DNA of 64,000 bases, from contig JAQSYP010000009.1 in assembly GCA_029256085.1 (NCBI GenBank), positions 1 to 64,000 on the forward strand, given 5' to 3'. The stretch's first letter is position 1; each line of letters starts with the position of its first letter. Under the pieces are notes generated by a model. The model searched no databases, was not told the DNA's origin, and was given only the letters and a program-made list of their open reading frames with translations. Positions 9,542 to 48,197 of this stretch are shown here, in pieces. The position numbers and the translations under genes are program-made. This stretch comes from Caryophanales bacterium. GTDB taxonomy: Bacteria; Bacillota; Bacilli; CAJFEE01.

Positions 9542-9589
9542 ATTGTCTCTGTCATTAAACAAATAATTGTCACGACAAATCGTTCTATC

Positions 9590-9677
9590 AACTTCCCTAC
9601 GCTGGTATAATCCAGATCAGGTTCAAAGGGTCTAGAACAATAGTTCAGTCTCAGCCACTAATGGCCCCCCTAGTTTC
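9590..9677 (-). promoter_or_regulatory. TPP riboswitch aptamer (THI box)
   Basis: The minus strand shows the conserved THI-box parts in order: GGGGGGCC, GGCTGAGA, then ACCCTTTGAACCTGATCTGG, ATTATACCAGCGTAGGGAAG, with closing AACT/AGTT. It controls the thiZXY-thiM-thiD-thiE operon and is predicted to stop transcription at the following terminator when thiamine pyrophosphate is plentiful. Confidence 0.97.
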
Positions 9678-9712
9678 AATCGATCATCATATTAAGTTAA
9701 AAACTATTTAAA

Positions 9713-9993: not shown

Positions 9994-10058
9994 AATTAAC
10001 GCTTTGAGAACTGAGGAGCACGACGTGCACCTTTAAGACCGTATTTCTTACGTTCTTT
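9994..10058 (-). repeat. attR: 65-bp direct repeat (rpsI tail)
   Basis: Identical base for base to 28906-28970. It covers the last 20 codons of rpsI and its TAA. It is the target-site duplication flanking the integrated element. One base further on (10059) the two copies diverge, marking the element end. Confidence 0.95.
9996..10058 (-). pseudogene. rpsI 3' remnant
   Basis: Twenty C-terminal codons of ribosomal protein S9 ([10 protein letters not shown] to FSKR) plus stop, with no start codon or upstream coding sequence. It was cut off from rpsI by insertion of the element, which carries its own copy of this tail. It should not be annotated as a gene. Confidence 0.9.
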
Positions 10059-10108
10059 AATCTTTATATATAATAGCAAGAAAAATGAATAAAAGCAATT
10101 TAATTTAC

Positions 10109-10132
10109 GCCTGATTTATCAGGCTTTTTTTC
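10109..10132 (+). terminator. Plus-strand terminator at element end
   Basis: GCCTGA/TCAGGC stem and a 7-T run on the plus strand. No plus-strand gene precedes it in the integrated form. In the excised circle, int (plus strand) would read across attP straight into it, so it probably shields hsdS from antisense transcription. Confidence 0.7.
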
Positions 10133-10172
10133 GTTTTCATATAAATTAGAAAAATATCGTTATATATGTTTG

Positions 10173-10190
10173 GTGGTCAGAAGGTGGTCA
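10173..10190 (+). repeat. Paired GTGGTCA repeats (putative integrase arm sites)
   Basis: Two GTGGTCA copies with an 11-bp period, just inside the element's hsdS end. The same pair, same strand and same spacing, occurs next to int at 28823-28840. The two-ended distribution and helical phasing suit arm-binding by the tyrosine integrase. Confidence 0.65.
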
Positions 10191-10202
10191 CAAAATTGCT
10201 CG

Positions 10203-11714
10203 TTACTTTGCTTTTTCTTGTAATACCTCTTTTAATAATTCAATTGCGTTTTCTTCTGTTGGGTCATTTGTTCCAAGTTCACCCCGGAATGCTTTTTGTA
10301 GAATAGAATTTTTTAATACGTCCATTTCTAATATGGATTGTTTACAAATTTCTTCAACGGCATCAAATTTCTTAAATAAAGTATCGATCACTTTAACTAT
10401 TTCTTGTTGTTCCTCAAGAGGTGGAAGTGGTATTGCCATATATATAAGTCTTGTTAAACCCAAATCTTTATTTGTTACTCCCCTGGTTTGGGCTTGAGAT
10501 TGATTATAAACAAATCTACTAGTTAAAACATCTCTAAGGTAGTACGGTGATATATACGATTTAACTATCTTTAATAAAGCTAAGTGAACCCATATACTGA
10601 ACGGTTCAGTTTCTTCAACTACTGTAGCAATACCCGTTGTTCCACCTTTTGTTATAATTACATCTCCTAACTTAGCGTTTGTTCTTTTACAAAATTCTAA
10701 ATGGTCTTCTTCACTAACAAATTTACAATCAGTGAAATCTATACCCCTATACTTGATATTTCTGGTAGAAATAAAAGGTACTCCTTTATCCTCTTCAACA
10801 TAGTTAGGGGAGAAATGTGGACCATCTGAAACACTCCAAGTTACTTGATCAATACTAACCCATTGCCAACTTGATGGAATTTGAAATAAATCTCTGACAC
10901 CCTTTGTCTTATCTCCAAGATCAATTGGTACTGGTGGCGTATAACGTTTATTACTAATGTTTGTTTCTTTTAAACGTTTACGTTCATCTAATAAAGGTTC
11001 TATATGAACCCTCTTTCCCGTATTCCTACTTCTCCATTTTTCAGTTAACTCTCCTCTTATTGCTTTATCCAAAACAGCTGCTCTACGAAGTTCAAATGTT
11101 TCCTTTGTTTCGTCAATCAACTGCTTGGCTTCTTCAATTTTATTCAAAAGATAATCTAGTTTATCAGAAATTCGTTTTTGTTCATTGATAGGTGGTAGTG
11201 GAAAATTCATTTCCTCAATGAGCTTACCACTAATATTTGGTTGTGCTCCACCATAGGCTAGACTAAGTATTTCATCTTTTGACTTCTGTATAAAAAGGTT
11301 TTTATACGCCCTTTCTATCAACCTTCTGTCAATTTCCTTGATATTGCCAACCCGTTGATTTTGCATAGCATTTTCATTAGCGTAAAAAATCCCAGTCTTA
11401 CCAGTCGTTGCTCCTGACATCGCAATTAAAAGATCTCCCTTATTGATGATAAATCTTTCATTGTATAATTCATTTGGGACCTTTACAGCTTTTGATAAGT
11501 CATAAATTTTTCCTACTATATCCGAAATTCTAACGATAGGAATACCTTCTTCTATATAATCTTTACTTTTAAAAGCATAACCATTAACAAGACTCGCAAC
11601 TGTTCCAAACTTTACCCAAATCCAGTTATCCGGTAATTTATATGGTTGCTCTCCCTCGTCAACTAACGCTTCAAGAAACAATTCTTCAACTGTCTTTTGC
11701 TGATTCTTACTCAT
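10203..11714 (-). CDS. hsdS: HsdS, type I restriction-modification specificity subunit
   Basis: 503 residues with two target-recognition halves, each followed by a helical spacer. TRD1 is about residues 25-190, ending at PLPPINEQKRISDKLDYLL; TRD2 is about 280-440, ending at PLPPLEEQQEIVKVIDTLF. This is the classical Methylase_S layout that reads a bipartite DNA site. The ATG at 11714 overlaps the hsdM stop by 8 bp (ATGAGTAA) and has GGAG upstream; the longer reading from 11765 is unlikely. It is the last gene of hsdR-hsdM-hsdS and lies next to the element end. Confidence 0.93.
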   Translation of the reverse strand: MSKNQQKTVEELFLEALVDEGEQPYKLPDNWIWVKFGTVASLVNGYAFKSKDYIEEGIPIVRISDIVGKIYDLSKAVKVPNELYNERFIINKGDLLIAMSGATTGKTGIFYANENAMQNQRVGNIKEIDRRLIERAYKNLFIQKSKDEILSLAYGGAQPNISGKLIEEMNFPLPPINEQKRISDKLDYLLNKIEEAKQLIDETKETFELRRAAVLDKAIRGELTEKWRSRNTGKRVHIEPLLDERKRLKETNISNKRYTPPVPIDLGDKTKGVRDLFQIPSSWQWVSIDQVTWSVSDGPHFSPNYVEEDKGVPFISTRNIKYRGIDFTDCKFVSEEDHLEFCKRTNAKLGDVIITKGGTTGIATVVEETEPFSIWVHLALLKIVKSYISPYYLRDVLTSRFVYNQSQAQTRGVTNKDLGLTRLIYMAIPLPPLEEQQEIVKVIDTLFKKFDAVEEICKQSILEMDVLKNSILQKAFRGELGTNDPTEENAIELLKEVLQEKAK

Positions 11715-13161
11715 TTCTACCCACTCCAACTGGTTCAGTAGAAACCTTATCCTCTTCAACTTCACGTAGTTCAGTTACAACTTCATTCAACAACCCAAGT
11801 GCTTGTTCAAGCTTAGCAATTGCATCTTCTGCTGAATCAATAGGATCTGGTAGGTTCGCATATACCGATATAGATTCATCTGCAATTAAACCAATATCTA
11901 AACTGTAGTCTTTTTTCTGGATTTCTTCACGTGTAAAGACGTTAAACCTTTCATCTTTTATACTAAATCGATCTTCGGATAGAAATGCTTCAACAAAAGC
12001 CTCAAAGTGTTTTTCTGTTAAGGGGTTTCTTTTTCCAAAGCTAGACATATTCGTTCGTAAGTCATACACCCAAACTTCTTTTGTAGTATCCTTATCTGTT
12101 GCACCACGAGTGAAGAAAAGAACATTTGTCTTAACCCCTTGTGCATAGAAAATACCTGTAGGTAAACGAAGAATAGTATGTAAGTTACATTTGTCCAATA
12201 AATCTTCTCGGATTTTTGCTCCAATTCCACTTTCAAATAGGACGTTGTCTGGTAAAACCACAGCAGCTCGTGCTTCTCCATTTGGCTTTAGAGCACGATA
12301 AATATGCTGTAAGAAATTCAATTGTTTATTAGTTGATGTAAATGTTAAATCATCGCGTGTTGGTCTTTCTCCACCTTGCTTTGTCCCAAACGGTGGATTA
12401 GTCAAAATAACATCATAGTTTTTTAAGTTACTTCCAAGTTCAGAAAGAGTATCACCAAGAAAAATTTCACCATGAATGTCATGTAGTAAAGCATTCATCA
12501 TTGCAAGACGGTGAGTATCTTTTACAAGCTCAACCCCAGAAAATGCCTTATACTTTTGGAACTCTGCTTCTTTCTCCCCTAAATCAAAATAATCATCTGT
12601 TTTTAAACGAACATGTCGATCTGCTGCAATCATAAACCCAAATGTTCCAGCTGCTGGATCATTACAACGCTCTCCTGGTTGTGGATCAACCAATTTAACA
12701 ATTACATCTATTAATGGACGTGGTGTAAAATATTGACCCGCACCGGATTTTGTTTCACTCGCATTCTTCTCAAGTAACCCCTCGTAAAGATCACCTAACC
12801 CTTCTTCTTTTGCACTATACCAATCAAGCTCATCAATAGAACGTACAATTTTTTCTAGGTTTTTAGGCTCATCAATATTTGTTTTTGCATTTGTATAGAT
12901 TTGTTTTAGGATATCGTTTCCTTCGTTACCCAAATCAATAAGTAGTTTTTGATAATGTGTTTTTAGTTCTAGTCCATGAAGACTCACTAATGAATCCCAG
13001 CGATACTCTTCTTCAATAGACCCTTCGTTATCTGTTTCCTTCATCATTTTTAAAAATAACAAATACGTTAATTCTGTTACATATTGATGATAGGTAATAC
13101 CATCATCACGTAACACATTACATAAGTTCCACAGTTTCTGAACAATCTGTTGGTTACCCAT
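11707..13161 (-). CDS. hsdM: HsdM, type I adenine-N6 DNA methyltransferase
   Basis: A 484-residue modification subunit that methylates adenine to protect host sites and forms the complex with HsdS and HsdR. An N-terminal helical HsdM_N domain (about 1-125) is followed by the SAM-binding motif I NDPAAGTFGF (about 167-176) and catalytic motif IV NPPF (about 255-258). The length and order fit a standard EcoEI/EcoKI-like HsdM. It starts 4 bp after the hsdR stop and overlaps hsdS, so the three genes form one translationally coupled operon. Confidence 0.95.
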   Translation of the reverse strand: MGNQQIVQKLWNLCNVLRDDGITYHQYVTELTYLLFLKMMKETDNEGSIEEEYRWDSLVSLHGLELKTHYQKLLIDLGNEGNDILKQIYTNAKTNIDEPKNLEKIVRSIDELDWYSAKEEGLGDLYEGLLEKNASETKSGAGQYFTPRPLIDVIVKLVDPQPGERCNDPAAGTFGFMIAADRHVRLKTDDYFDLGEKEAEFQKYKAFSGVELVKDTHRLAMMNALLHDIHGEIFLGDTLSELGSNLKNYDVILTNPPFGTKQGGERPTRDDLTFTSTNKQLNFLQHIYRALKPNGEARAAVVLPDNVLFESGIGAKIREDLLDKCNLHTILRLPTGIFYAQGVKTNVLFFTRGATDKDTTKEVWVYDLRTNMSSFGKRNPLTEKHFEAFVEAFLSEDRFSIKDERFNVFTREEIQKKDYSLDIGLIADESISVYANLPDPIDSAEDAIAKLEQALGLLNEVVTELREVEEDKVSTEPVGVGRNE

Positions 13162-13164
13162 ATG

Positions 13165-16100
13165 TTATGCTTGCTCCCTTTCATCTTTTGTGTATAGTGC
13201 GTAGTTGATTTTACTCACAATTTCGTCTAGTTGTCCACCGAAGATCTTGTTTAGCTGCTTGTAGCCACCACGGCTCTTAAACGGCTCGACTTCAAAGGCC
13301 TTTTGCGGATCAGGATGAAGAACAGACTCTTTTAGCAATTGTTTTTCTATGCGCTCTAACCAGCCCTTTTGTACACTAGGCCATGCTTTCATCGCATAGA
13401 TCTTTTTCATAGCTCTCTTTATGCGCTCTTCATGGTCCATAAGCGGGTCACCTAATGCCTGCTGACGGATAAAGCTTATGATGTCTGCGGCAATATCCAC
13501 ATTTTTCGCATCACGCCACGCCGTCTGCAATGCCTTTTCTGTGAAGCCTTTTTGATCTAGTGCAATACGTAACTCTCGCAGTTGGTCACGTGTGAGTTCT
13601 TTCGGTCTTGTGCATACCACTTGCAAAGCTGGGATTAAATTCATATTCTCTTTTATAAACTGACCAAAGCTCTGTAAATAATCCTCTGGCTTTTTGGCGC
13701 TTCCATACCCGCGTGTTACCTCTTTTACCTCGTCCTCATGTGTCGAGATAAATTGAAGCACAGGTCTGCCTCTATTTTCATCGATATATTGAACAATATT
13801 TTGATTCTTCATCAACGTTTCAATGACATCATTAGGTTCTGCGGTTTTAATCCAATTCACAAACTCGTTAATCGTTTTTCCACCTGATAATATTTTAAAG
13901 TCGTCTTGATCCTTCTCATCCCACCGCTGTTTCTTTCGTTGAATTTTAGCGATAAGTTCTTCTTTGTGCTGCCGTTTCAAGCTGTCGTCATCAATTTGCT
14001 CTAATTCTTTTACCAATTGTTCTACTGTTACCTTAGGGCTTTTAACAACTGGCTTCATTTGTGTGTACGGCTTTAACGATTCATAAATACCGACTGCATC
14101 AAAAATAGAGAAATGATCTTTGCCAATCTCATCTTGTCTTCTTGTGGCACGTCCCAACATTTGCTCATACAAAATACGCGAGCGCACTCGTCGTAGAAAT
14201 ACAAGATTAACAATAGCAGGAACATCAACACCCGTCGTGAGTAAGTCGACAGTAACCACAATGTTTGGTAGCCGTTCATTTTTAAATAACTTAATTGCTT
14301 GTGAAGGATTTTTAATAGAGCCTGTTATTTTCATAACCGCATTATCATCGATAGGACCATGAATATCCTCTAACTCTTCTTTAAAAATTCTAACAACCAT
14401 ATCAGCATGATCATCAGTTGCGGCAAAAATTAATGTTTTCCCAAGACTTGTCGGATCAATATATTTAGCTAGTTCAGCTAAAATTACACGATTAAAGTTT
14501 TCCGTAATAACCATCTTGTTAAATTGTGTTACTTCAATATTAACTTCATCTTCTAACAACTCTGTTTCTATCTCTCCAGTACGAGTGTTATAAACTTCAA
14601 CAGTATCGCCTGCCTCCCAGTGTATACCAGATTGTTTAAGTGTTGTTTCAAATTGGTAAGGTGGTTCATGATCTATTAAATAACCATCCACGACAGCTTC
14701 TCGATAAGAATACGTAAATACAGGGCTACCAAATATCTCGACCGTATGCAGCGCTGGCGTTGCTGTTAATCCTACCTTTGTTGCATCAAAGTATTCAAGC
14801 ACTTGGCGGTATTTACTCACATAGTCCTGGTGATCTCGAAATAGCTCTTCTACCTCAGACATTTCTTTATCTAGCGTATAACCTCTGTGTGCTTCATCAA
14901 CAATGATGCAATCGTATTGATCAACCGTTGGGGTTTCTTCATCGCGCTCTGAATAAAATAATCGCTTTAACATACCCTGAACAGTAGCAATTTGTACTTT
15001 CGTTTCCGTATTTGGTTTAATATCCTCTAATGACTGTAGTTCAAAGATTTCTGTAAACGAATGATAATTCTCTAGTTTGGAATCTTTAAAGGCAGCCTCC
15101 GCTTGCTCACCTAATGCTGTTCGGTCTACTAAAAATAAAATTCGTTTGAAGCGGTTATGTTTAATCAGTCTATAGACAAGACCTATTGCCATCCTTGTCT
15201 TCCCTGTCCCGGTAGCCATAGCAAGCAAAACTTCTCTCTGATTTCTTTCTACCGCTTGCTCAACTGCTTTGATAGCTTTCTCCTGGTAGGGGCGTAGATT
15301 TAAGTAATCGAGCTTTTCATCACGAAGTTTTTCATTAGCCTTCTCTTCGTCTAGCTTTAATAACTCCTTTAAGCCTTTTGGCGAATACCAAGCTTTTAAA
15401 GGCCTTGGATGGTTAGTTGATTTCCTTGCATCTAAAAACCAAATGCCCGATCTCTCTTCAAATTGCTTAAGATAGGGTCTACCATTCGTAGCAAATAAGA
15501 ACGGAACAAAGTAGTCACCATATGGTTCTAGAATGATTTCTTCTCCCTTTTTTTCTACTAATCTTGCATAGTTCTTCGCCTGCTCAATGTCAGAAGGGAT
15601 GTTTTTACTTAGTCTTTTCGCTTCTATAATCCCTATAAGTTCTAATCCCACAAACAAGGCATAATCTGCAAATCCCTTTTTCAACGGCCATTCAGCAATC
15701 GCTAGATTCTTTCCCTTTTCAGGACGAGCGCCTTTACCATAGCGTAATTCTCTCGTATCGGCTACCCAACCCACTTCACGCAGCTGTTCATCAATGATGA
15801 CACGCGTTTCCTCTTCTGTTAGCTTTAGCTGTGTTCCGTGTACATTAGCGTCTTTCTTCCGTTTCAGCTTGTCCTCATCTGACACATAGTGCTGCTCTTG
15901 TCTCAATTTTTCAAGCTCTTGCTCAAGCTGCGCTACCTTTTCTTCATAGGAAGAGGATAGGTTATGTAGTTCTTCATCGTTCACTATACTCACAGGTGTT
16001 GGCTCTTTATAAGCAGGCTCAGTAAAGTCCCAATCGCCATATACCTGCATAAACCAAACACCTAGCCTATGTGCCATATGTAATAAGACTTCAGCTTCCT

Positions 16101-16407
16101 TCTGGGTTCCGAAGCCCTCGTGCATAGCCTTATTTCCTTTTTTTCGTATCGTATGCAAAATTTCCTCAAGCTCCTGTGAGATAAGGTCGTCTCTTCTTAA
16201 GGCATTTATGCGATCCGTTTGATTTGTATCATGTGTTTCCTTAATCTCTTCGTATGCTAATACATATTTTGTTAAAGTCTCCGCAAATACGCGCAGCTTC
16301 ATCAAGGTTGTGTTTGGATCTATGAAGACGTTTCTTTCTGCCGTTTCCCCCAAATTGGCTAAAATCTCCCATTTTTCAGAAAGAAAATTAAAGTTACTTA
16401 TCCCCAT
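13165..16407 (-). CDS. hsdR: HsdR, type I restriction translocase/endonuclease
   Basis: A 1080-residue restriction subunit. Order seen: N-terminal DUF4145-like helical domain (about 1-130), coiled coil (about 150-175), HSDR_N nuclease domain with D248 and E262-A-K264 of the PD-(D/E)XK fold, then the SF2 translocase with Walker A ATGTGKT (about 398-404), DEAH (504-507), TATP, TTGVDVP and QMLGRATRR. The EcoEI_R_C-type helical C-terminus follows. All catalytic motifs are intact, so the enzyme should cleave unmodified DNA. By eye hsdR is clearly richer in GC than the Septu-like operon in the same element, hinting at a different source. The start is ATG with a GGGG-type ribosome-binding site. Confidence 0.95.
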   Translation of the reverse strand: MGISNFNFLSEKWEILANLGETAERNVFIDPNTTLMKLRVFAETLTKYVLAYEEIKETHDTNQTDRINALRRDDLISQELEEILHTIRKKGNKAMHEGFGTQKEAEVLLHMAHRLGVWFMQVYGDWDFTEPAYKEPTPVSIVNDEELHNLSSSYEEKVAQLEQELEKLRQEQHYVSDEDKLKRKKDANVHGTQLKLTEEETRVIIDEQLREVGWVADTRELRYGKGARPEKGKNLAIAEWPLKKGFADYALFVGLELIGIIEAKRLSKNIPSDIEQAKNYARLVEKKGEEIILEPYGDYFVPFLFATNGRPYLKQFEERSGIWFLDARKSTNHPRPLKAWYSPKGLKELLKLDEEKANEKLRDEKLDYLNLRPYQEKAIKAVEQAVERNQREVLLAMATGTGKTRMAIGLVYRLIKHNRFKRILFLVDRTALGEQAEAAFKDSKLENYHSFTEIFELQSLEDIKPNTETKVQIATVQGMLKRLFYSERDEETPTVDQYDCIIVDEAHRGYTLDKEMSEVEELFRDHQDYVSKYRQVLEYFDATKVGLTATPALHTVEIFGSPVFTYSYREAVVDGYLIDHEPPYQFETTLKQSGIHWEAGDTVEVYNTRTGEIETELLEDEVNIEVTQFNKMVITENFNRVILAELAKYIDPTSLGKTLIFAATDDHADMVVRIFKEELEDIHGPIDDNAVMKITGSIKNPSQAIKLFKNERLPNIVVTVDLLTTGVDVPAIVNLVFLRRVRSRILYEQMLGRATRRQDEIGKDHFSIFDAVGIYESLKPYTQMKPVVKSPKVTVEQLVKELEQIDDDSLKRQHKEELIAKIQRKKQRWDEKDQDDFKILSGGKTINEFVNWIKTAEPNDVIETLMKNQNIVQYIDENRGRPVLQFISTHEDEVKEVTRGYGSAKKPEDYLQSFGQFIKENMNLIPALQVVCTRPKELTRDQLRELRIALDQKGFTEKALQTAWRDAKNVDIAADIISFIRQQALGDPLMDHEERIKRAMKKIYAMKAWPSVQKGWLERIEKQLLKESVLHPDPQKAFEVEPFKSRGGYKQLNKIFGGQLDEIVSKINYALYTKDEREQA

Positions 16408-16489
16408 GCTTACACCCCTATCAAATTTATATATAATTATAGTCTAACATCTTTTAATGATAGTAGCATTTAGAATAGAAACCTTTTAT

Positions 16490-16524
16490 AGAAAAAAAAA
16501 CAGCCATGCAATAGCTGTTTTTTG
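16490..16524. terminator. Bidirectional-looking terminator
   Basis: AAAAACAGC/GCTGTTTTT stem with an 8- to 9-nt loop. A run of A lies on one side and T on the other, so it can serve the minus-strand 200-aa gene that ends at 16649 and isolates hsdR from it. Confidence 0.75.
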
Positions 16525-16648
16525 ACTAAGTTAAAGGATCTTTAAAATGTAATGCCAATCCTTAAACTAATATATATATTACTGGTCCAGTGAATCCTCT
16601 ATCATCTTTATAACAAAAGTATTTATTAAGAAGAATGAATATTGCTAT

Positions 16649-17251
16649 TTACTTCCTAGTGAAGTCTTTCTTTATTTGATCAATATCTCTTCTAGTTATT
16701 TCTGAAATATATTTCAGTAGATCATCATATTTGTCACTATTATTGAGTTTTTTTAATCTCTCAACAAGACCCTCAAAACCCTTAAAATATTCACTTTGAT
16801 AATCTGAGTTGTTATAAAACTTAAAAAATTCAAGATAATCTTTTGTAGACATTTTATCTTTTATCTGTATAAGAATATCATTCCAATTTTTAATTCTTTT
16901 TTCATGTATAGGTTTTTTTAAGCTACTTCCTTCTTTTTTCTCATTTTTTATCTGTAGAATAAACTGTTCGATTTCAAGCATATATTGAAAAAGTTCATTC
17001 CTATTTTGACTATCCAATTCATATAGTAATTTAGCATTATAACGATTATAACGCCCTTTCCTATAATGTTCTTTTCCTTCTGTTTTGTTTGATTCTTCTT
17101 TCTTTTCTCTATGTTTTTTAACCGAATCTACTACACCTAAAAAATCTAATGCTGCTGTTATCTCTTTTCGGTTGTCTTTTAAAAATCCCCATGCTTTTGG
17201 TCCATATTTTTTTACCCCTTCTTTAATTGGCCCCATAGGTATTCTAGACAT
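16649..17251 (-). CDS. Hypothetical protein between the two defence operons
   Basis: A 200-residue, highly charged, mostly helical protein (many Lys/Glu, no Cys). It begins MSRIPMGPIKEGVKKYGPKA with a short moderately hydrophobic region (AALDFLGVVDSV) near residues 33-44 and has no clear signal peptide. I do not recognise the family. GGGGGGC before the ATG acts as ribosome-binding site. It stands alone between terminators and separate from hsdR, so it may be an independent accessory or defence gene; that is inference from location only. Confidence 0.65.
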   Translation of the reverse strand: MSRIPMGPIKEGVKKYGPKAWGFLKDNRKEITAALDFLGVVDSVKKHREKKEESNKTEGKEHYRKGRYNRYNAKLLYELDSQNRNELFQYMLEIEQFILQIKNEKKEGSSLKKPIHEKRIKNWNDILIQIKDKMSTKDYLEFFKFYNNSDYQSEYFKGFEGLVERLKKLNNSDKYDDLLKYISEITRRDIDQIKKDFTRK

Positions 17252-17444
17252 ATTTGCCCCCCTTAGTTAGTAAACTGAAACATCCATTTTAAATTAATAG
17301 ATTTTTGATATATATTCATCAACTATTATGGGTTTAACCCATTTACCAAGACCACCAAATTATTTGACACCTCGAATCATGGTTAAGCCCCTAACAATTG
17401 AATTTAAGAACACTCTAATTTTCCCATTAGGAATCAATTACTTT

Positions 17445-17486
17445 AATTATAGTAATTATTAGTTAAATTCAATAATTACTATAATT
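17445..17486. repeat. Perfect 16-bp inverted repeat
   Basis: AATTATAGTAATTATT (17445-17460) and its exact complement (17471-17486) with a 10-nt loop, all AT-rich, in the 635-bp non-coding stretch 17252-17886. It has no poly-T tail, so an operator, cruciform or origin-like element is more likely than a terminator. Its function is unknown. Confidence 0.7.
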
Positions 17487-17551
17487 CGACACTAATTCGT
17501 GAAATACCTTTACTAGATATAGACCTTTTCATAGTATGAGATTATTTAAAA

Positions 17552-17594
17552 AACCGAGAGTTAGCGGTTATATTGTTTATGCTAATCCTCGGTT
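17552..17594 (-). terminator. Terminator-like hairpin downstream of the Septu-like operon
   Basis: A 14-bp stem, AACCGAG..TTAGC with GCTAA..CTCGGTT (one mismatch, one wobble), and a 15-nt loop. On the minus strand it is followed by a short T run. It is the first such structure below ptuB, about 290 nt downstream, and may end that transcript. Confidence 0.55.
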
Positions 17595-17686
17595 AATAAT
17601 TTATTTTATATGAATACTAGCTATTAATACTTAGCAAGTTTATGTATATTGAGCCCTGAATTTACTATATCCGATAGTCATCTGTT

Positions 17687-17825
17687 ATACGCTCTTTTAT
17701 TTGTTGTATATATAATATGAAGAAACACAGATAAAAGCAATTTAATTTATGCCTGATTTTATAAGGCTTTTTCCGTTTTCATCGATGCTAGATAAATATT
17801 GTTATATGTTTGGTGGTCGGGGTCA
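17687..17825 (+). repeat. Decayed internal copy of the element end (vestigial att)
   Basis: Aligns along its length with the element end at 10048-10190. An att-core-like ATACGCTCTTTTAT (11 of 14 with the rpsI site) is followed by an exact 19-bp match (17731-17749 to 10089-10107), a degenerate GCCTG..AGGC hairpin with T run, TGTTTGGTGGTC and a shortened second arm repeat GGGGTCA. It marks an old junction between two elements within the island. Confidence 0.85.
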
Positions 17826-17886
17826 AAATGTAACACCTAATTATTTTTACTATTTAAACTAGCCATTCTATAAAATCTATTGATGG

Positions 17887-18558
17887 CTAAACACCCACTA
17901 GTGCTTTATTTAGCCTTTTTTGTAGAAAATACACAGCCACACCATAAAACTGCTTGTGTTGCCCATCAGCATTTTTAGATTCCCACTTGTCAATTAATTC
18001 TCTAATCTGTTTAGCTGTCCAATTGGATTTATTACTACCAAGTTGCTTTCTAACTTGATCATAGATGTCTGCACGATAATCTTTTAACCGTTGTAAATTC
18101 AAATTTAGATTTTCATTAATGTCTACATTTATATCAACTATTGAAGAACTTATCTTTCCATCTTTATTGTAGGTAATACTATCTATATGACTTTTTTTAG
18201 TCATGCATAGGGTTACCACCTTATCACCTTTAAATGTATCACAGTGTTGATAATCTTTAGGCTTTTTTCTCGATTGTATTTTTTCGTCACCATCACAAGC
18301 AGCAAACAGATTGTTGTAACTAAAGATTAGATGTTCTTGCTTACTACTCTTACAAAAACTTTGGGGTAAAAGATGCTCTATTTTAGTGGACTTATAATTA
18401 TTACGAATACGCTTCATACAATAACAGCAAATATATCCTTGCTCTTGTAGTAATGAAGTCCGAAGATCAGATTTATCTAAATCATCAAATCTAGTTGCCC
18501 CACTTAACCTTGATACAGTCCAAGATTTAGGTTCACTACCTTTAGTAATTAATAGCAT
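17887..18558 (-). CDS. ptuB: PtuB-like HNH endonuclease
   Basis: A 223-residue HNH nuclease of the PtuB/retron-effector type. The beta-beta-alpha metal site is visible: CCYC (44-47), I-E-H (H62) in IEHLLPQSF, YNNLFAACDG (N82/N83, C88) and HCDTF (H105, C106). In Septu systems the PtuA ATPase and PtuB nuclease together cleave nucleic acid upon phage infection. It starts 6 bp after the ATPase gene. Unlike retron-Septu loci there is no reverse transcriptase; unlike simple Septu, a methyltransferase and a specificity subunit share the operon. Confidence 0.85.
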   Translation of the reverse strand: MLLITKGSEPKSWTVSRLSGATRFDDLDKSDLRTSLLQEQGYICCYCMKRIRNNYKSTKIEHLLPQSFCKSSKQEHLIFSYNNLFAACDGDEKIQSRKKPKDYQHCDTFKGDKVVTLCMTKKSHIDSITYNKDGKISSSIVDINVDINENLNLNLQRLKDYRADIYDQVRKQLGSNKSNWTAKQIRELIDKWESKNADGQHKQFYGVAVYFLQKRLNKALVGV

Positions 18559-18564
18559 AAATAT

Positions 18565-19833
18565 TTAATCCCTTTCAAATTCAATAATACTATTCGCTCT
18601 AGTTATTCGTTTATCATCCTCACCCATCAATTTAGAAAGTTTAATTAAAATATTTTCAGCTTCATTGTATTTCTCTTCTTCGATTAAGTTAAATATAGTG
18701 TCAAAATCGTTTTCAATGTCATCAACATAAACATTAACACCCATCGCTTCATTCAATATTGAATCAAAATCACGTCCATAAGTATAAGGAGAATTAATTA
18801 TTTCTCCCTTATCAATGATAAAAACATTCTCCTTCCTCACATGAGGTAACATAATAGGAGAGTGTGTGGTAATTAGGAACTGTTGATTAGAATTTATTAA
18901 ATTTATTTCACTAATTAAGTCTATTTGCCAGGTAGGATGCAAGAAAGAATCAGGCTCATCAAGTAGAAATAATGTTTGATTATTAGAAAACAATTCACTT
19001 ACTGCATAAATTGTAATTAATTGTTTTTCTCCTTCACTTAAATCCATAAAATCCAATTGTGAACTGTGGTTTATTAACAATTCAATTGAATTTACCTTTA
19101 AGCACCCTGCCCTATATAGCCAATCTAAAGCAGTATAGAGATCATACTCATATCCAAATAAATCCTTAAGATTCATTAAATCTTCGTTAGTAGCAAGAAT
19201 AATTTTGTCATCATTTCCACTAAGTTTATAATGTTCTCTTAATTTCTGATACAGTGATTTGGCCGGTTCCCTTAAAGTACTTTTTTTCTCTATGGACAAC
19301 TCTATTCTAGTAAAATTATTTATACCAATCTTTTTTTCTATAAATTCACTTAATTGCGATCCCTTTTCAAAAGATAAAAGATATATAAATAAGAACGGAA
19401 ATAATTCAGGAGTTACATAATAAACAGGCATTAGCCAATTTAATTTACCAAGTGAGGCCATATATTCCATAAATAAATTCTCTTGTTCATGTATTACTTT
19501 TTCAAGTCTTTTTGTGGTACCGGAGTATAATACAACTAGATTAGGAGAATAGCTTAATCCCACCCCTAAATGACTTACCCTAACTTCCTCTCTTGTTTTG
19601 TTAGATAAGTGGTTCAATTGGCCATTATAAATACTATCAAGTAAGTAGGAGAAGTTGGTATCTTTTCTACTATAAAAACTAATAAAAATTTCCGTAATTG
19701 CCTCAATTAAATTAGATTTCCCCGAACCATTCTTCCCAATTAACAGTATTTTATTGTTTATAGAATTAGAGAGGTCTAATCTGAAATCTCTAAGGTTTTT
19801 ATAATTCTCTATATATAATTGATTAATTTTCAA
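18565..19833 (-). CDS. ptuA: PtuA-like AAA/ABC-type ATPase
   Basis: A 422-residue SMC/OLD-type ATPase: MKINQLYIENYKNLRDFRLD N-terminus, Walker A GKNGSGKS (33-40), signature-like LSEGEKQ (265-271), Walker B LFLLDEPDSFLHP (288-300) and the H-loop TTHSPIMLP (about 322-330). An AAA_15/AAA_21 architecture, as in PtuA and other defence ATPases. The ATG overlaps the stop of the upstream specificity gene by 4 bp, so its synthesis is tied to the DNA-recognition subunit. It probably senses infection and controls the HNH partner; the trigger is unknown. Confidence 0.85.
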   Translation of the reverse strand: MKINQLYIENYKNLRDFRLDLSNSINNKILLIGKNGSGKSNLIEAITEIFISFYSRKDTNFSYLLDSIYNGQLNHLSNKTREEVRVSHLGVGLSYSPNLVVLYSGTTKRLEKVIHEQENLFMEYMASLGKLNWLMPVYYVTPELFPFLFIYLLSFEKGSQLSEFIEKKIGINNFTRIELSIEKKSTLREPAKSLYQKLREHYKLSGNDDKIILATNEDLMNLKDLFGYEYDLYTALDWLYRAGCLKVNSIELLINHSSQLDFMDLSEGEKQLITIYAVSELFSNNQTLFLLDEPDSFLHPTWQIDLISEINLINSNQQFLITTHSPIMLPHVRKENVFIIDKGEIINSPYTYGRDFDSILNEAMGVNVYVDDIENDFDTIFNLIEEEKYNEAENILIKLSKLMGEDDKRITRANSIIEFERD

Positions 19834-21170
19834 TAAAAAATTGCCTCCTCAAATTCCATTTTAGCTTCCTTTTTTAGAGATTCAGATAATTCTCTTAACT
19901 TTACTACTTCACTTTTAATATTTTTAATATAACTTACAATTTCCTTTTGCACTTCCAAAGGAGGAGTTATAACCGGATAATTATTTATCATTTCTGCATT
20001 TAAATTGGGTTGGTTATTTCCACTCGCTAAAACACGTAAACGTTCATACTCGTTCATTAAATAAAACCATAAGAAGTCAGTATTAATTTTATTATTATCA
20101 AAATTATATAACACTGCACAGGCTTGATTAGTTGCTGCCTCAATTCCTAGTTTAGCAGTTCTACCTCTAGTTGCACCTTGCCCATACATGGCTATTATCA
20201 AGCTTCCTACAGGATAAATCTTAGCACTACTATCTTTTATTGCTTCCTCGGTTATCTTTTCCTCGGCATCAAAAATTGTGCTATTTATTACTTCACCTGT
20301 CTTTATCCAAGGTATTGTGCCGTTATAATAATCTTTTCTGTTCCTGCTAGGAGTTCCTCCACTACCAACTCTACATAATGAACTAATTATATTCATTTTA
20401 AAATTTGAAGTGATCTTAGTGTTTACAGCTGTTAAAAATTCAAACCCCCATTTGTTTAAGTTCGAAAATGATTTAATTAAAAAGCGTTTTGACTCACTTG
20501 ATTCATGTTCAGAGTCTATTCCTAATATTTCTTCTAGGTATCTTTTAATTTCATCCTCTAGTTTTTGGGATTTATTAACCATGAATTCAGCTTCTTCTAC
20601 CTTTTTATAATAATTTACCAACATCTTTTCCTGTTCTAATAAAGGCGGAAGAGGTATTTCACTGTTTAAAAATAAATCCTCCTGTAGATAATGCCGATTC
20701 GTTGTACCATTACTACTAGATTCCCAAATATCTTTAAACTGCTTTGTGGCAAGGATAAATGATAAATAATTCGGATTAATTATCGACGTTTCAATATCAA
20801 AGGTCCAAAAATTCCCTGTTATTATCCCTTTGTCAAGTTCTTCTGGAATAACACCAAAAGCTCCATTACGGGCATCTATTTTTGATAGTATTAATTGTCC
20901 AGCTTTAACTAGGTATTGTTCCTTCGTGCCTATTGAGTTTCCCTGGACTATATCCCTCAACACCACACCTTCATTGTTCATTTTTATTTTAATTCTCTTG
21001 TATTCAACATTATCCTGAATATTTATTTTAGTTTTATTCCTTTTTAAGAGGCTGCTTAATTTGACTGCCGGATACACCAAACTAATATTATTTGAAAGAG
21101 TTAAATACTGTATACTCCAATTTGTTAGATTTTTATAAGAAATCGATTTGATAAAATTCACCTTAGACAT
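19830..21170 (-). CDS. Type I-like HsdS specificity subunit of the Septu-linked operon
   Basis: A 446-residue protein with two Methylase_S-type halves. The first (about 1-195) ends in PLPPLLEQEKMLVNYYKKVEEAE; the second (about 225-430) ends in PPLEVQKEIVSYIKNIKSEVVKLRE. TRD2 contains RVGSGGTPSRNRKDYYNGTI and a GNNQPNLNAEMINNYP segment. It overlaps the methyltransferase gene by 13 bp and the ATPase gene by 4 bp. No hsdR partner lies in this operon. It is distinct in sequence from the HsdS at 10203-11714, so it should read a different DNA site. Confidence 0.88.
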   Translation of the reverse strand: MSKVNFIKSISYKNLTNWSIQYLTLSNNISLVYPAVKLSSLLKRNKTKINIQDNVEYKRIKIKMNNEGVVLRDIVQGNSIGTKEQYLVKAGQLILSKIDARNGAFGVIPEELDKGIITGNFWTFDIETSIINPNYLSFILATKQFKDIWESSSNGTTNRHYLQEDLFLNSEIPLPPLLEQEKMLVNYYKKVEEAEFMVNKSQKLEDEIKRYLEEILGIDSEHESSESKRFLIKSFSNLNKWGFEFLTAVNTKITSNFKMNIISSLCRVGSGGTPSRNRKDYYNGTIPWIKTGEVINSTIFDAEEKITEEAIKDSSAKIYPVGSLIIAMYGQGATRGRTAKLGIEAATNQACAVLYNFDNNKINTDFLWFYLMNEYERLRVLASGNNQPNLNAEMINNYPVITPPLEVQKEIVSYIKNIKSEVVKLRELSESLKKEAKMEFEEAIFY

Positions 21171-23422
21171 TTTGGACTTTTCAGCTCCTGTTCCTCATTT
21201 CCAATAACTCTTACCAAGTTCCCATTTTTTGCTAATTTGTAGGATATTTCCTTCTTTTCCGAATTCCAGAGCATAGTTTCTTTATTAAATTCGTTAAACT
21301 CCTTTTCAACATCTAAAAGTTCATTTTCACAAACTGCACCTGTTGTAGTAATCCCAGCTTTTTCAACCTTTGCTATTGGAATTTTGTAATCAAATAGAGC
21401 TTTTATCTTTTCCTTTATTTCAATTTCTTTTCTTTGGTTAATTACTTTTAGACACTCTTTGTACTCTTTATCCTTTTTTCTATTTGCATATTGAATATTT
21501 AAAGTATCTACATCAGGTATATATTTTTGATTTATTTCCTCCGTTACTAATTCCTGAATATTATTATATTTATCCTCTTCTTCTTGAGAAAAACGTTTTA
21601 TAAATACAAGACTAGGTTTTACTGTGGCACCAGCTGCTATAAAAACGTCTTGTGGAATTGAGCATATAAATAGTATTTTAGCTCGCCCTTCAAAATACTC
21701 TCTTACCTTTTGCATGTTAGAATTGTTAAGTATACCTTCAGGCAAAACAATTCCCATTCTTCCGCCTTTCTTTAGAAGTTTTAGACATCTTTCCATAAAA
21801 AGAACTTCGGTTAAGCCGGTGAATTTTCCCGTATCAAATAAGCTTAAAACTGAGTTTCCTATATTATCATCAGTTTGTCTTAGTGCCTCTTTATAAGCTT
21901 GTCCGTATCTTCTAACTAGTTTATTTATTGCCACTTCATCTCTAAATCTATCTGCTTCGGTTATTTTAAGACTTTTATCAATTCTGGCTCCAAATGGTGG
22001 GTTTGTTAGAATTACATCGAACCTTTCTTCAAATATTCCATTCACATTTAGTAGGCCATCATGATGATGAACTCCGCCATGCCCATCTCCATGCATTATC
22101 ATATTCATTTTAGAAGTTCGGGCCATACGAGAATTAGCATCAACACCATAAATACAGTTATGTGATAAATCGTATAATCTACTTTCAAAATTCCCCTCGT
22201 TAGATACTTCAAATTCTTTATTTAATAAATCAAAGATATTGTTAAGCTTTCTATTAATCTCGGTTTGCTCTGATTCAGATAGAGAGTCATAATCTTCACC
22301 CATGAGCTCATTCTTAAATTTTTCTTTATAGTATTGTATATCTAACTCAATTTTTTCTCTAATATATTCAAATGATTTAATTAAAAACCCACCACTCCCA
22401 CATGTTGGATCACATATTGTTTCACCTTCCTGTGGATCCAGGATATTGGTCATAAAATCAACTATTGTTCTGGGCGTGAAAAACTGGCCTAATTCTCCTC
22501 TAAAAGTTTTTCCTAGAAATTGTTCGAAGGCTATCCCTTTAACATCATCCGATGTATCAGATAAGTTATATTTTTCTAGTTCTTCTAGAATCGCCTCAAA
22601 ACTATTTTGTCTTATCCTAATTAGTTCATTTTCTTCAAAGAGTTTATCTTCGTTGTAAAAATTTTTTGTATTCATAAATAAGTACTGCATATACGGTAAA
22701 TCCAAATGTGTATTCTTTAGATTTGGGCGTATATTTTGTTCAAAAGTGAGTTCATCCTGTTTAAACTTTTCTTTAGTGAAAACTATACTTCCCTTATTAT
22801 TCTTTTCAAAATTAATTTTCATAAAAAGTACCTTACTAATCTCATCAAATGCAGCTTCCGGGGAAAGTTTATCATTGTTTCTGATAATACTATGACACCT
22901 AAATAATAATCTGGTAAATTCCTCCCTTGTAAATGTCTTTGTTTGAGAGAGTAATTCTAGTATTTTGTTTGTGTCATTTACTTCGTCTGCTTTAGGTATT
23001 GCTAATATTTCCTCTAGACTTTTAGGGAGATATTCTTTATTAATATTAAAGTATTTCGTTTCCTTTAAATTCGTGGTAACAAAAAAGGTTGCTCCTGCCC
23101 AAGCAGCATAATTATACCCTTGAAAGTAATCTTCTACGTGAATTTTTAAATTTTGGGACTTACACTCAACAACTATAAATGCTGCCTTTCCATCTTTCTT
23201 GTCCTCTTCACTTTTCCATATAACGATATCTGCTCTAGCCTTTCCTTGACCACGCTTTGAATTATTTACTATAACCTCTTGAGCCATTTGATTTATGGAA
23301 TAACCATATTCATTAACTAATTTCTTTATATATTCCTGTCGAACTCTTTCTTCGGGGGTTTCTACAAGCCATTTATTAATTAGTGGCGCAAATATTTTTG
23401 ATTCTTTTATTTGGATTTCCAT
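21158..23422 (-). CDS. N6-adenine methyltransferase with N-terminal HSDR_N-like nuclease domain
   Basis: 754 residues, much longer than a plain HsdM (about 500). The first ~125 residues look like the type I R-subunit N-terminus: VRQEYIKKLVNEYGY, then RADIVIW (D65) and VVECK (E86, K88), the PD-(D/E)XK pattern. A helical region follows, then the methylase with motif I DPTCGSGGF (338-346), a His-rich HGDGHGGVHHHD (about 445-455) and catalytic NPPF (474-477). It could both modify and nick/cut, as in type IIG-like enzymes, with the specificity gene downstream. A strong AGGAGG precedes the ATG. It is the first gene of the M-S-PtuA-PtuB operon. Confidence 0.88.
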   Translation of the reverse strand: MEIQIKESKIFAPLINKWLVETPEERVRQEYIKKLVNEYGYSINQMAQEVIVNNSKRGQGKARADIVIWKSEEDKKDGKAAFIVVECKSQNLKIHVEDYFQGYNYAAWAGATFFVTTNLKETKYFNINKEYLPKSLEEILAIPKADEVNDTNKILELLSQTKTFTREEFTRLLFRCHSIIRNNDKLSPEAAFDEISKVLFMKINFEKNNKGSIVFTKEKFKQDELTFEQNIRPNLKNTHLDLPYMQYLFMNTKNFYNEDKLFEENELIRIRQNSFEAILEELEKYNLSDTSDDVKGIAFEQFLGKTFRGELGQFFTPRTIVDFMTNILDPQEGETICDPTCGSGGFLIKSFEYIREKIELDIQYYKEKFKNELMGEDYDSLSESEQTEINRKLNNIFDLLNKEFEVSNEGNFESRLYDLSHNCIYGVDANSRMARTSKMNMIMHGDGHGGVHHHDGLLNVNGIFEERFDVILTNPPFGARIDKSLKITEADRFRDEVAINKLVRRYGQAYKEALRQTDDNIGNSVLSLFDTGKFTGLTEVLFMERCLKLLKKGGRMGIVLPEGILNNSNMQKVREYFEGRAKILFICSIPQDVFIAAGATVKPSLVFIKRFSQEEEDKYNNIQELVTEEINQKYIPDVDTLNIQYANRKKDKEYKECLKVINQRKEIEIKEKIKALFDYKIPIAKVEKAGITTTGAVCENELLDVEKEFNEFNKETMLWNSEKKEISYKLAKNGNLVRVIGNEEQELKSPKCLR

Positions 23423-23727
23423 TAATAAAACCTCCTAATATTATTTTATTTAGTTATTCATAGTAAAAACAAAATAAAAATCTTAAGTCATTAAAGTTAG
23501 CTTATTTCAAAATATTAAAAATATCAACTCCCTCCTTTGGGAATTAGCTAAATATATCCTTATTGGCTGTTTTTGGCTTTAATCTTTGTACAGCAATGAT
23601 TACGGCATTCATATACACAATACAAAAAGAAAAGGCCTCTAACATTTTAATAAAAATGAAAAGAAGCCTTTTCCTATAATTAGATATTCTAGATGGTTAA
23701 TAAATCATGTCCTAATTGTCTAATTCT
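23423..23727. other. Intergenic region between helicase-loader gene and Septu-like operon
   Basis: About 305 bp, AT-rich. It contains one terminator (23636-23672) and presumably the promoter of the downstream methyltransferase operon. Candidate -35/-10 pairs on the minus strand are weak and I do not commit to one. No small ORF with a ribosome-binding site was seen. Confidence 0.5.
23633..23673 (-). terminator. Terminator after helicase-loader gene
   Basis: AAAAGGC/GCCTTTT with an inner ATTTT/AAAAT stem. On the minus strand it ends in TTTTCTTTTT, about 55-90 nt after the stop of the DnaC-like gene. It separates the replication block from the defence operon. Confidence 0.75.
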
Positions 23728-24606
23728 TTATTTTATTTGTAATGTCATTCTGTAGTCACCTGTTAATAACTCAATAAATCTAGTATTATTATGAAGACGA
23801 CTGAATACACGCTCACCGATGGCCGTCGGTAAGTATTTTTCGTTTAAGTTGCTTGTATAGATCGTCGGCTTGCCAATTCTCTTGTTGACGATCTCAAACA
23901 ACTTATTTTTACTCCAGTCAAACTCATCCGTACTCCTTGCTTCAGACCCTATGTCATCTAGTATTAATAAGTCAAACTTTCCTAGATCATTTAGTATGCT
24001 TTCTTCTGTTTTACTCGCCCCTTGTTGATAGGTGGCCTTTATTTTAGCTAATAATGCCCCTGTAGTTATATAACCTACCAAAAAACCTTTATCCTTAATA
24101 GTTCTTGCTATCGCTGTTGCTAGGTGTGTTTTTCCTGTACCTGGGTTTCCGAGAAGAACCAAATTATATCTCTTATCTGGATTTTCTAAAAAGTTTTTTA
24201 CGTATTCAATAGCTGATATCTTTGCTTCATATATACTACTAGGCATACCTTCAATATAGAAATTTTTGAAACCCGCTTTTTTTAAATCCTCTGGTATATA
24301 CCAATACTCTTTACCAAATCGATTATTCAGTTGATCATGTAGTTGATGCTTATTATAGTCCATATCCTCTGATAACATCATTTTATCTGTACATGATTTA
24401 CACTTGATTTCATTTATACAAATAATTGGTATCCATTCATTTGTGCCATGTATTCTGTACTCTGCTATATTTGCCTCCCCATTACATACTGCACATAAAG
24501 TACTTGCCATTCTTGCGTCATAATCATCCCTTTCAGCAATCTCCTTAATATGATATTTCATATTGTTTTTAAACCTATCATGTAATAAGTTTTGAATACT
24601 TTGCAT
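23728..24606 (-). CDS. DnaC/DnaI-like helicase loader ATPase
   Basis: A 292-residue AAA+ ATPase of the IstB/DnaC family. An N-terminal zinc-binding region (C38xxC41 and C69xxC72) is followed by Walker A GNPGTGKTH (153-161), Walker B LLILDDIG (213-220) and sensor TSNL (about 251-254). Such proteins load the host replicative helicase at the element's origin. It lies 15 bp downstream of an O-like replication gene, the pairing found in lambda-like phages and satellites. An IS21 IstB helper is unlikely because no transposase is present. Confidence 0.87.
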   Translation of the reverse strand: MQSIQNLLHDRFKNNMKYHIKEIAERDDYDARMASTLCAVCNGEANIAEYRIHGTNEWIPIICINEIKCKSCTDKMMLSEDMDYNKHQLHDQLNNRFGKEYWYIPEDLKKAGFKNFYIEGMPSSIYEAKISAIEYVKNFLENPDKRYNLVLLGNPGTGKTHLATAIARTIKDKGFLVGYITTGALLAKIKATYQQGASKTEESILNDLGKFDLLILDDIGSEARSTDEFDWSKNKLFEIVNKRIGKPTIYTSNLNEKYLPTAIGERVFSRLHNNTRFIELLTGDYRMTLQIK

Positions 24607-24621
24607 GATACCCTCTCCCTT

Positions 24622-25464
24622 TTAATACGGCAAATCATCTTCTAACCGTGTTATATCTTGAATTTCTTTTTTGCTAAGATTCCGTTTAACACCCTTTGTA
24701 TTATTAAACATATTTTTTAGTGTTGGAATTCTATAATTTTTTGATTTTGACCTATTATCAAATTCATCATTGTATTTTCTTACATCCTTGATCGTATACA
24801 TTCTTAAATTGCTTAGATGATTTAAAATACTATCAATATAGGATTCCGGATGCGATGGATTTTGCGACTTTGCTCTCCGAATAATTTCACATATTATTGC
24901 TTCTGGATCTTGAAATGAATTACTTTCAATCCACCTATTTAAAATTTGGTACATTTTCTTTGATAGCTTGCCAAAATTATTTTCATATTCAAGAAAAGGG
25001 TTTGGCTTATCATAATCAATGTTTATATATATTTCTTTATTTATTTCTTGATTGTCTATTTCACCTATAGTACCTTTATCAGAATTACCAAAGGTAATAT
25101 TGATACTTTGACCATTGGTTAGTTCACCATTGTCTAAATCACCGTACCCATTTCTACCAATCCATCTGTCAAAATCTTTAACAAAAGTTATTTTCCTATT
25201 ACAACCTGAACGTATCTCTTGAACTATTACATTACGCTTCTCAAGTATTTTTAATTCTCGTTGAATTTGTCTAGGGTTACATCCAGTAGCTTTACTTAAA
25301 AAGTTTAAGGACATATCATGGATCTTCCTATTAAACCCATATGTATATCGAAAAATAACAAATATTAATCTAAATTGTGTTGGACTCAACTTAACTTTTG
25401 CCAGTTCCTCCAAAAGTTGATTTGCTATTTTTGTATACCCTTTATCTAATTGTACATCAGCCAT
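24622..25464 (-). CDS. Phage O-like replication initiation protein
   Basis: 280 residues. The N-terminal ~100 residues match the phage replication protein O winged-helix type (YTKIANQLLEELAKVKLSPTQFRLIFVIFRYTYGFNRK, then an SKATGCNPRQIQRELKILEKRNVI recognition region). The C-terminal part is charged and probably contacts the helicase loader encoded next. The middle of the gene (about residues 105-150) has repeated CAATGGT-like words and a TTACC/GGTAA palindrome followed by AT-rich DNA, resembling the in-gene origin of lambda O. An AGAAGG-type ribosome-binding site lies upstream. Confidence 0.8.
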   Translation of the reverse strand: MADVQLDKGYTKIANQLLEELAKVKLSPTQFRLIFVIFRYTYGFNRKIHDMSLNFLSKATGCNPRQIQRELKILEKRNVIVQEIRSGCNRKITFVKDFDRWIGRNGYGDLDNGELTNGQSINITFGNSDKGTIGEIDNQEINKEIYINIDYDKPNPFLEYENNFGKLSKKMYQILNRWIESNSFQDPEAIICEIIRRAKSQNPSHPESYIDSILNHLSNLRMYTIKDVRKYNDEFDNRSKSKNYRIPTLKNMFNNTKGVKRNLSKKEIQDITRLEDDLPY

Positions 25465-25497
25465 ATACCACTACCTTCTTTTTAGTAATTTCTATTA

Positions 25498-25725: not shown

Positions 25726-25733
25726 AAATTCAC

Positions 25734-26135: not shown

Positions 26136-26153
26136 ATTCTATCACCCCTTTTT

Positions 26154-27647: not shown

Positions 27648-27651
27648 AATT

Positions 27652-28803
27652 ATGGCATCCTTCCAAAAGTACATTACAAAACATGGTCAACTTTGGTTAT
27701 TCAAAATGGATACTGGGATTAATCCAGCAACAGGTAAGCGACAAACTACCACTAGAAGAGGGTTTAAAACAAAGAAGGAGGCACAACTCGCTGCATCAAA
27801 ACTAGAAGAAGAATTACAAAGTGGAATACTAATAAATAACAATAATTTAACTTTCTATGATGTCTTTATTCTATGGTTCAATCAACATAAGAAATCTATC
27901 AAATTAAGTACAATAAAAATCATTGAATCAAAATTTAAGAGTCACATATTGCCTCGTTTTGGCCAATTAAAAATAAAGGATATCAATAAGATTTATTGCC
28001 AGAAACAAATTAACGAAATTGCTTTATCCATAAAATCTGTTAATGATATTAAAATTCAAGCTAACCAAGTATTTAAATATGCAATCAAGATGGATATTAT
28101 CTCTAAGAACCCTCTTGAACATGTAACAGTCCCGAAAATAAAACAAGAAATAGTAGCAGACAAACCAATAACCGACACACGTAATTATTGGAGAAAAGAT
28201 GAAATACAGAACTTTCTTGAAATTACTAAAAATGAATTAACATTAAGAGATCATGTTCTGTTTCATTTACTAATATATACTGGTGCACGTAAAGGTGAGT
28301 TACTTGCACTTACATGGGAAGATATTGATTTTAAAAGAGGTACATTACGTCTATGGAAAACCTTATTCCATAGTAATAATGAGCATATCTTTCAGCAGCC
28401 TAAAACGAAAGATTCTAAGCGATTAATTAGTTTAGACACCAAAACCTTAGCTCTATTAAAAAAGTGGCGTATAGCCCAGTTAGAAGAGGAGTTTGCTATT
28501 GGTAAAAGAAAGGATAAAGTTAATATAGTGTTTACAAAAGCTGATGGAAGCCCCCTACGATTAGCCTACCTTAATGAAAAGTTAAACATTTTAATAAAAA
28601 AGCATAAACTCCATCCTATTACTATCCATGGTCTAAGACATACACACGCTTCATTACTTTTTGAAGCTGGAGCAAATATTAAAGAGGTTCAAGAACGCCT
28701 GGGCCACTCTGATATTAAGATGACTATGAATATCTACACTCATGTAACAGATACCGTAAAGGAACAAACTGCCTCAAAATTTCAAATGTATTTGGAGCAA
28801 TAA
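27652..28803 (+). CDS. int: Tyrosine recombinase integrase
   Basis: 383 residues. An N-terminal arm-binding AP2-like domain (about 1-55) is followed by a SAM-like core-binding domain (about 65-160) and the catalytic domain with R213 (GARKGE), H326-x-x-R329 (HGLRHTH), H352 (LGHSD) and nucleophile Y362 (NIYTHV). All catalytic residues are present, so it should be active. It lies about 100 bp from the 65-bp att repeat in rpsI and reads towards it, which identifies the rpsI 3' end as its target. GAAAGGAA precedes the ATG. Confidence 0.96.
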   Translation: MASFQKYITKHGQLWLFKMDTGINPATGKRQTTTRRGFKTKKEAQLAASKLEEELQSGILINNNNLTFYDVFILWFNQHKKSIKLSTIKIIESKFKSHILPRFGQLKIKDINKIYCQKQINEIALSIKSVNDIKIQANQVFKYAIKMDIISKNPLEHVTVPKIKQEIVADKPITDTRNYWRKDEIQNFLEITKNELTLRDHVLFHLLIYTGARKGELLALTWEDIDFKRGTLRLWKTLFHSNNEHIFQQPKTKDSKRLISLDTKTLALLKKWRIAQLEEEFAIGKRKDKVNIVFTKADGSPLRLAYLNEKLNILIKKHKLHPITIHGLRHTHASLLFEAGANIKEVQERLGHSDIKMTMNIYTHVTDTVKEQTASKFQMYLEQ

Positions 28804-28822
28804 TTAAAGATATTATTATTTC

Positions 28823-28905: not shown

Positions 28906-28970
28906 AATTAACGCTTTGAGAACTGAGGAGCACGACGTGCACCTTTAAGACCGTATTTCTTACGTTCTTT
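28906..28970 (-). repeat. attL: 65-bp direct repeat inside rpsI
   Basis: Perfect copy of 9994-10058, spanning the last 20 codons and stop of rpsI. Position 28971 onward is chromosomal rpsI only. The crossover must fall within this block. Confidence 0.95.

Positions 28971-47762: not shown

Positions 47763-48197
<435 letters not shown>

Follow-up and report, generated by a model that had tools for sequence, protein, structure and literature searches.

The 200-aa open reading frame (ORF) at positions 16649-17251 of the 64,000 nucleotides analysed here (the window) belongs to a conserved family that is frequently found in the company of restriction and nuclease genes, shares one of its slots with several other kinds of occupant, and lies beside an HNH gene in every copy from the genus labelled g17 (which, from its gene content, we guess to be Exiguobacterium). 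The best reading is that of an accessory gene, so far undescribed, of nuclease-type defence islands, i.e. a horizontally transferred single-gene cassette carried as defence-island cargo, most likely encoding a putative anti-phage accessory protein beside nucleases (a probability of roughly 45%). Because the gene has moved alone between distant bacteria and often stands beside DNA-cutting defence genes, it makes a good candidate for an anti-virus gene not yet described. If it is indeed phage-protective, the list of defence genes would gain a family that is invisible to the libraries searched here.

The gene and its island

The ORF is read on the minus strand from an ATG ending at position 17251 and contains GPIKEGVKKYGPKAWGFLKDN. 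The initial annotation had proposed it without giving a strand; the plus-strand reading of the same positions holds many stops, and 28 homologues align with the minus-strand product. The choice of start codon is supported by these homologues, most of which open with a similar M-x-K/R-I-P. As had been claimed as well, the gene has its own ribosome-binding site (AAGGGGGG, directly before the ATG) and its own terminator (a 13-pair hairpin followed by a T-run), and it is positioned between hsdRMS and a Septu-like operon (Table 1). Its ribosome-binding site resembles that of the copy in Sutcliffiella. On both strands of the 2-kb region three terminator-like sites were found versus 0.5 expected, and a promoter scan of this region stayed at chance level (9 found versus 12 expected). 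The gene is separated from hsdR by 241 bp and from ptuB by 635 bp, and has a GC content of 27.4%, below the 32.8% of the island and the 36.9% of the remaining window.

Table 1 Positions of the family gene, its signals and the surrounding island in the window
Feature	Position	Strand	Description
Family gene	16649..17251	-	200-aa basic protein; low-confidence N-terminal ~60 residues and helical C-terminal domain (about 61-197)
Ribosome-binding site	17257..17264	-	Strong, directly upstream of the ATG
Terminator-like hairpin	16495..16523	-	13 pairs and T-run, between the family gene stop and hsdR
Inverted repeat	17445..17486	.	Perfect, 16 nt with 10-nt loop, within the 635 bp that separate ptuB from the family gene
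hsdR-hsdM-hsdS	10203..16407	-	Type I restriction-modification operon, downstream neighbour; profile matches
N6-methyltransferase, specificity subunit, PtuA-like ATPase, PtuB-like HNH nuclease	17887..23422	-	Upstream neighbour; profile matches
Tyrosine integrase	27652..28803	+	Integrase of the island, adjoining rpsI; profile matches
Distal direct repeat	9994..10058	.	Exact, 65 bp, island end
Proximal direct repeat	28906..28970	.	Exact, 65 bp, island end, covers the 3' end of rpsI

The type I restriction-modification and Septu (PtuA/PtuB) genes lie in the same island and on the same strand as the family gene. This integrative island at rpsI measures 18,977 bp (9994-28970) and bears, besides its tyrosine integrase, DnaC/O-like replication genes. 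The 3' end of rpsI is a known integration site of the Macrococcus McRImecD islands, which are like the window island in their tyrosine integrase, insertion at the rpsI 3' end, direct repeats (McRImecD-1) and restriction-modification cargo, but differ from it in what the cargo consists of, the window island having replication-type genes and two restriction-type operons (PMC5341023).

Elsewhere in the island, a gene at 25734-26135 matches terminase small subunit families (best E 1.3e-8), and adjoining the integrase is a 305-aa gene (26730-27647) that matches nothing in NCBIfam at E <= 1 and PHROGs only weakly; by eye, its product has a cysteine motif near the C-terminus. The methyltransferase of the operon at 17887-23422 bears an HSDR_N_2 domain, but a separate hsdR gene is missing from the operon, where PtuAB may replace the restriction subunit. 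Rfam matches in the window, all on the minus strand, comprise a TPP riboswitch (9577-9681), an S10-Clostridia leader (48084-48187) and an L10 leader (62715-62841).

Family membership and predicted structure

The window protein has no match at E <= 1 in Pfam, NCBIfam or PADLOC, while its best hit in PHROGs has an E of 0.0058 (over 45 residues) and its best hit in the PDB an E of 0.7 (0.076 when a 17-member profile is used). Searched against Pfam, 17 family members hit 12 families, each with one member only and with a best E of 0.0012. The initial statement that the protein matches no known family therefore stands, and neither a housekeeping nor a phage structural family was matched in the profile searches, PHROGs or the PDB. 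With this lack of a family match and the patchy distribution of the gene, a housekeeping or phage structural role was rejected. Of the titles listed for GmrSD/PtuA, Septu and defence hot spots, none names the family, in a partial literature and for a family without a name to search by; within these limits no description of it was found, and it appears to be previously undescribed.

Matches at E <= 0.01 were obtained in 20 of the 398 genomes sampled from the class (15 of them below 1e-10, with the window's own genome counted) and in five of the 398 sampled from the phylum, where only two are strong, one being the window's own genome and the other already known. The gene is present in 7 of 19 g17 genomes and matched in 21 of 261 genomes of family f3, 18 of them strongly, including one degenerate copy (G797); the order and family samples around the window's genome consist of two genomes only. 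Weak matches (E 1e-4 to 0.01; loci L017-L021, L040-L042 and L066-L068) were regarded as chance hits or fragments and not used further, and the G797 copy (two stops, locus L081) was left out of the alignment (A2).

The alignment covers 28 copies from 27 loci along their length; these come from Sutcliffiella (Bacilli) and from three families of the window's class (f1, f3 and f16). M1, L87, W123, Y139, E141, S153, T186 and F197 are invariant. The 28 aligned copies and the dN/dS ratios of 0.07-0.48 in the 10 pairs computed argue that the ORF is more than a chance one; the ratios also point to purifying selection on the family. One genome (G044) carries two divergent family paralogues in tandem (L034 9102-10834), with DUF6119, a MazG-like gene, a PLD-helicase and McrBC upstream of them.

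AlphaFold models from 17 and from 28 sequences agree on a low confidence for residues 1 to ~60, the N-terminus being no better with the larger set, whereas residues 61-197 are modelled as helices at a pLDDT of ~90, among which long helices at 84-107 and 110-147. Each of the 28 members has a net charge of +5 to +12 over its first 58 residues, versus -6 to +7 for the remainder. A Foldseek search with the 17-sequence model (best E 1.5) gave nothing above common-helix level, and the best fold match, a long helical hairpin of a large-subunit ribosomal protein (presumably uL29/L35; VIA Z 7.9, rmsd 3.2, 84 residues), likewise falls in the common-helix range. The always-positive and presumably flexible N-terminal segment may contact nucleic acid, or possibly a membrane surface, and the conserved helical C-terminal domain could serve in protein contact or sensing.

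The same two parts could also make up a lone abortive-infection effector, with basic, Ala/Gly-rich N-terminal helices acting as a membrane or ribosome toxin that the C-terminal bundle would restrain until a phage cue arrives. Such an effector would fit the travel of the lone gene across genera without a constant partner, as well as the weak hydrophobicity that many members show at about residues 26-44, but no toxin family was matched and a transmembrane helix is unlikely, since the 17-residue hydropathy maximum is 0.38-1.76 and exceeds 1.6 in only 1 of 28 members. The effector is considered unlikely on the whole, and its transmembrane version was rejected, hydropathy being too low.

Transfer as a single gene and the slot beside the PLD-helicase

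The Sutcliffiella horikoshii copy is 76% identical to that of the window with a silent-site difference of 23%, whereas TruA of the same pair is 53% identical with a difference of 88%. Between the window and genome G888 these values are 69% and 43% for the family gene versus 50% and 79% for TruA. The DNA similarity in two close pairs stops at the gene ends, covering window positions 16661-17262 in the case of Sutcliffiella (ending within the ribosome-binding site) and 16657-17268 in the other. In two pairs of distant bacteria the gene has thus been transferred by itself. No recent transfer is seen for G151, G347, G044 and G815, since the family gene (49%, 38%, 29% and 33% identity with the window, respectively) is there as diverged as TruA (51%, 48%, 48% and 48%) or more.

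Four genomes of genus g60 (L076-L079) carry the family gene between a glutaredoxin gene and the gene of a PLD-domain helicase, as a cassette of a TATAAT box (by eye), ribosome-binding site, ORF and hairpin (by eye). This PLD-helicase gene is at least 91% identical in 11 genomes, and the family gene adjoins it in 4 of these. The other seven, together with G871 (87%), provide eight loci for comparison in which the family gene is not there. Half of them have a bare slot with a 90-140-bp spacer (L102, L103, L104 and L109), L108 has an OrfB/TnpB-like gene in the slot, and L107 a 199-aa ORF (here the alignment does not reach the glutaredoxin gene). A gene with GmrSD_N and GmrSD_C domains lies exactly between the glutaredoxin and PLD-helicase genes in L105, and beside the PLD-helicase in L106, where the glutaredoxin gene is only partly matched. 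GmrSD (DUF262) type IV restriction thus takes the same slot as the family gene in L105 and adjoins the same helicase in L106, but is a 627-629-aa two-domain restriction enzyme without sequence relation to the 200-aa family. From these occupants it follows that the family gene behaves as a discrete unit, positionally interchangeable with a restriction gene. More widely, some match to the PLD-helicase occurs in 83 of 261 genomes, and 7 of the 18 strong f3 loci contain such a helicase gene within their 20 kb.

A small and charged protein encoded on an integrative island, as it is here, could also be an anti-defence protein with which mobile elements evade host restriction. However, tblastn found no copy in phage records (50,697, queried with the window protein and three members) or plasmid records (72,556, queried with the window protein and four members), nor did any turn up with four queries in viral contigs, a search with a reach of close relatives only. 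The phage-borne anti-defence reading is weakened by this and seems highly improbable. The initial annotation had placed the gene in a slot for either defence or anti-defence factors, of which the former is strengthened by the recurrence beside restriction and nuclease genes and the slot shared with GmrSD, and the latter weakened by the lack of copies in these phage, plasmid and viral-contig searches.

Nuclease neighbours and fixed partners

All seven g17 copies are located 45-56 bp before an HNH gene, which is present in 8 of the 19 genomes of the genus. In G096 this HNH gene is broken, its first piece adjoining the family gene and the rest lying ~3.4 kb away. In the eighth genome with the HNH gene (G318), the same HNH gene is intact and is directly preceded by a DUF6904 gene (PF21845; L082 7172-7885) instead of the family gene; DUF6904 differs from the family in being a separate Pfam family of 237 aa here, and nothing was found in the literature under its name. 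The HNH protein itself gives weak matches to PtuB models over the HNH motif.

Outside g17, the family gene follows T5orf172 nuclease genes (by 6 bp in L073, and by 274 bp), GIY-YIG-like genes (109 and 158 bp; motif by eye, no Pfam match), a DUF6119 gene (70 bp), a 217-aa gene that Pfam does not match significantly (3 bp) and an 88-aa ORF that adjoins an Mrr_cat gene (16 bp, L074), while McrBC, GmrSD and SIR2-type genes are near some copies. The GIY-YIG-like gene encodes 173-177 aa (L032 10311-10844 and L071 9039-9560) and occurs in 9 of 46 g60 genomes. The gene of 212-217 aa (L033 7583-8221 and L072 2811-3464) has, by eye, a restriction-endonuclease-like D...ExT motif.

Neighbours of 100 aa or more, no more than three per side, were compared systematically with Pfam (147 of 159 genes). 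Among the 25 of 119 families listed, ResIII (6), Helicase_C, PLDc_2 (5) and HNH_4 (5) were most frequent, with HNH (4), Methylase_S (3), GmrSD_N (3), T5orf172 (3), N6_Mtase (2), acetyltransferases and ABC_tran also listed; the core genes RNB and SmpB appear because of the shared g17 site. Control regions (19, set at round coordinates in as many genomes carrying the family gene, with 114 genes in all) showed no restriction family among the best 25 of 166 families. The gene is therefore enriched near known defence genes relative to arbitrary regions, the controls not being from the same islands and loci within a genus not being independent. Island crowding alone could place the family gene beside nucleases.

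That the gene is cargo of another kind, with some other adaptive or element-maintenance role and merely the same integration hot spots as defence genes, is rather unlikely. Hot spots do carry mixed cargo, the g60 slot also houses the TnpB-like gene and the 199-aa ORF, and no restriction gene evidently adjoins the family gene in L031, L070 and L075, but the difference of the neighbour families from those of arbitrary regions of the same genomes, and the HNH gene beside 7 of 7 g17 copies, speak against such a role.

None of the neighbours is constant across genera. The close T5orf172 group (at least 75% identity) occurs in seven genomes, with the family gene adjoining or one gene away in three. 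The family gene lies beside the GIY-YIG-like gene in 2 of the 9 genomes having the latter, and 7 of the 11 close PLD-helicases are without the family gene. Among the fetched loci, only the window has PtuA and PtuB, blastp giving no homologue of either elsewhere. On these counts, the family gene is an obligate subunit of none of these systems. Blastp clustering places hsd-type genes close to the family gene at four loci only: the window, L002, L080 and L081 (the degenerate copy). Accordingly, a Septu component (PtuA/PtuB linkage only in the window) and a type I restriction-modification accessory (no constant hsdRMS linkage) were both rejected. Nor is an obligate partner of one nuclease supported by the occurrences of T5orf172, the GIY-YIG-like gene, the PLD-helicase and the HNH gene of G318; since partners vary, obligate pairing is unlikely.

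The operon-like spacing at several loci (6 bp in L073, 16 bp in L074 and 45-56 bp in g17) would suit an immunity or regulatory partner, antitoxin-like, that shields the host from the resident nucleases or tunes them. Nucleases of the same close groups nevertheless occur without the family gene, and in G318 the HNH gene is intact without it, with DUF6904 instead. Rather than the constant two-gene operon of a toxin-antitoxin pair, the gene is a lone cassette in g60 and in the DNA common to distant genomes, and g17 is the only genus in which each copy has an HNH neighbour. An antitoxin-like role appears quite improbable.

With the preferred reading of an anti-phage accessory protein, the family protein would act in phage defence by assisting whichever nuclease is resident, instead of one fixed partner. 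It would be a considerably bolder step, and one that we consider doubtful, to regard the family as an undescribed single-gene anti-phage family of Bacilli, in which one mobile adaptor with a basic tail serves many nucleases (HNH, GIY-YIG type, Mrr and PLD-helicase). The bare slot, GmrSD in the same slot and DUF6904 before the same HNH gene form natural matched pairs for testing function.

Finally, ~70 bp upstream of the gene are common to two distant genomes (L002 7927-8000 and L070 9629-9694). This stretch holds GGAAACGGTCTTT, which in L002 belongs to a short inverted repeat and is a possible control element.
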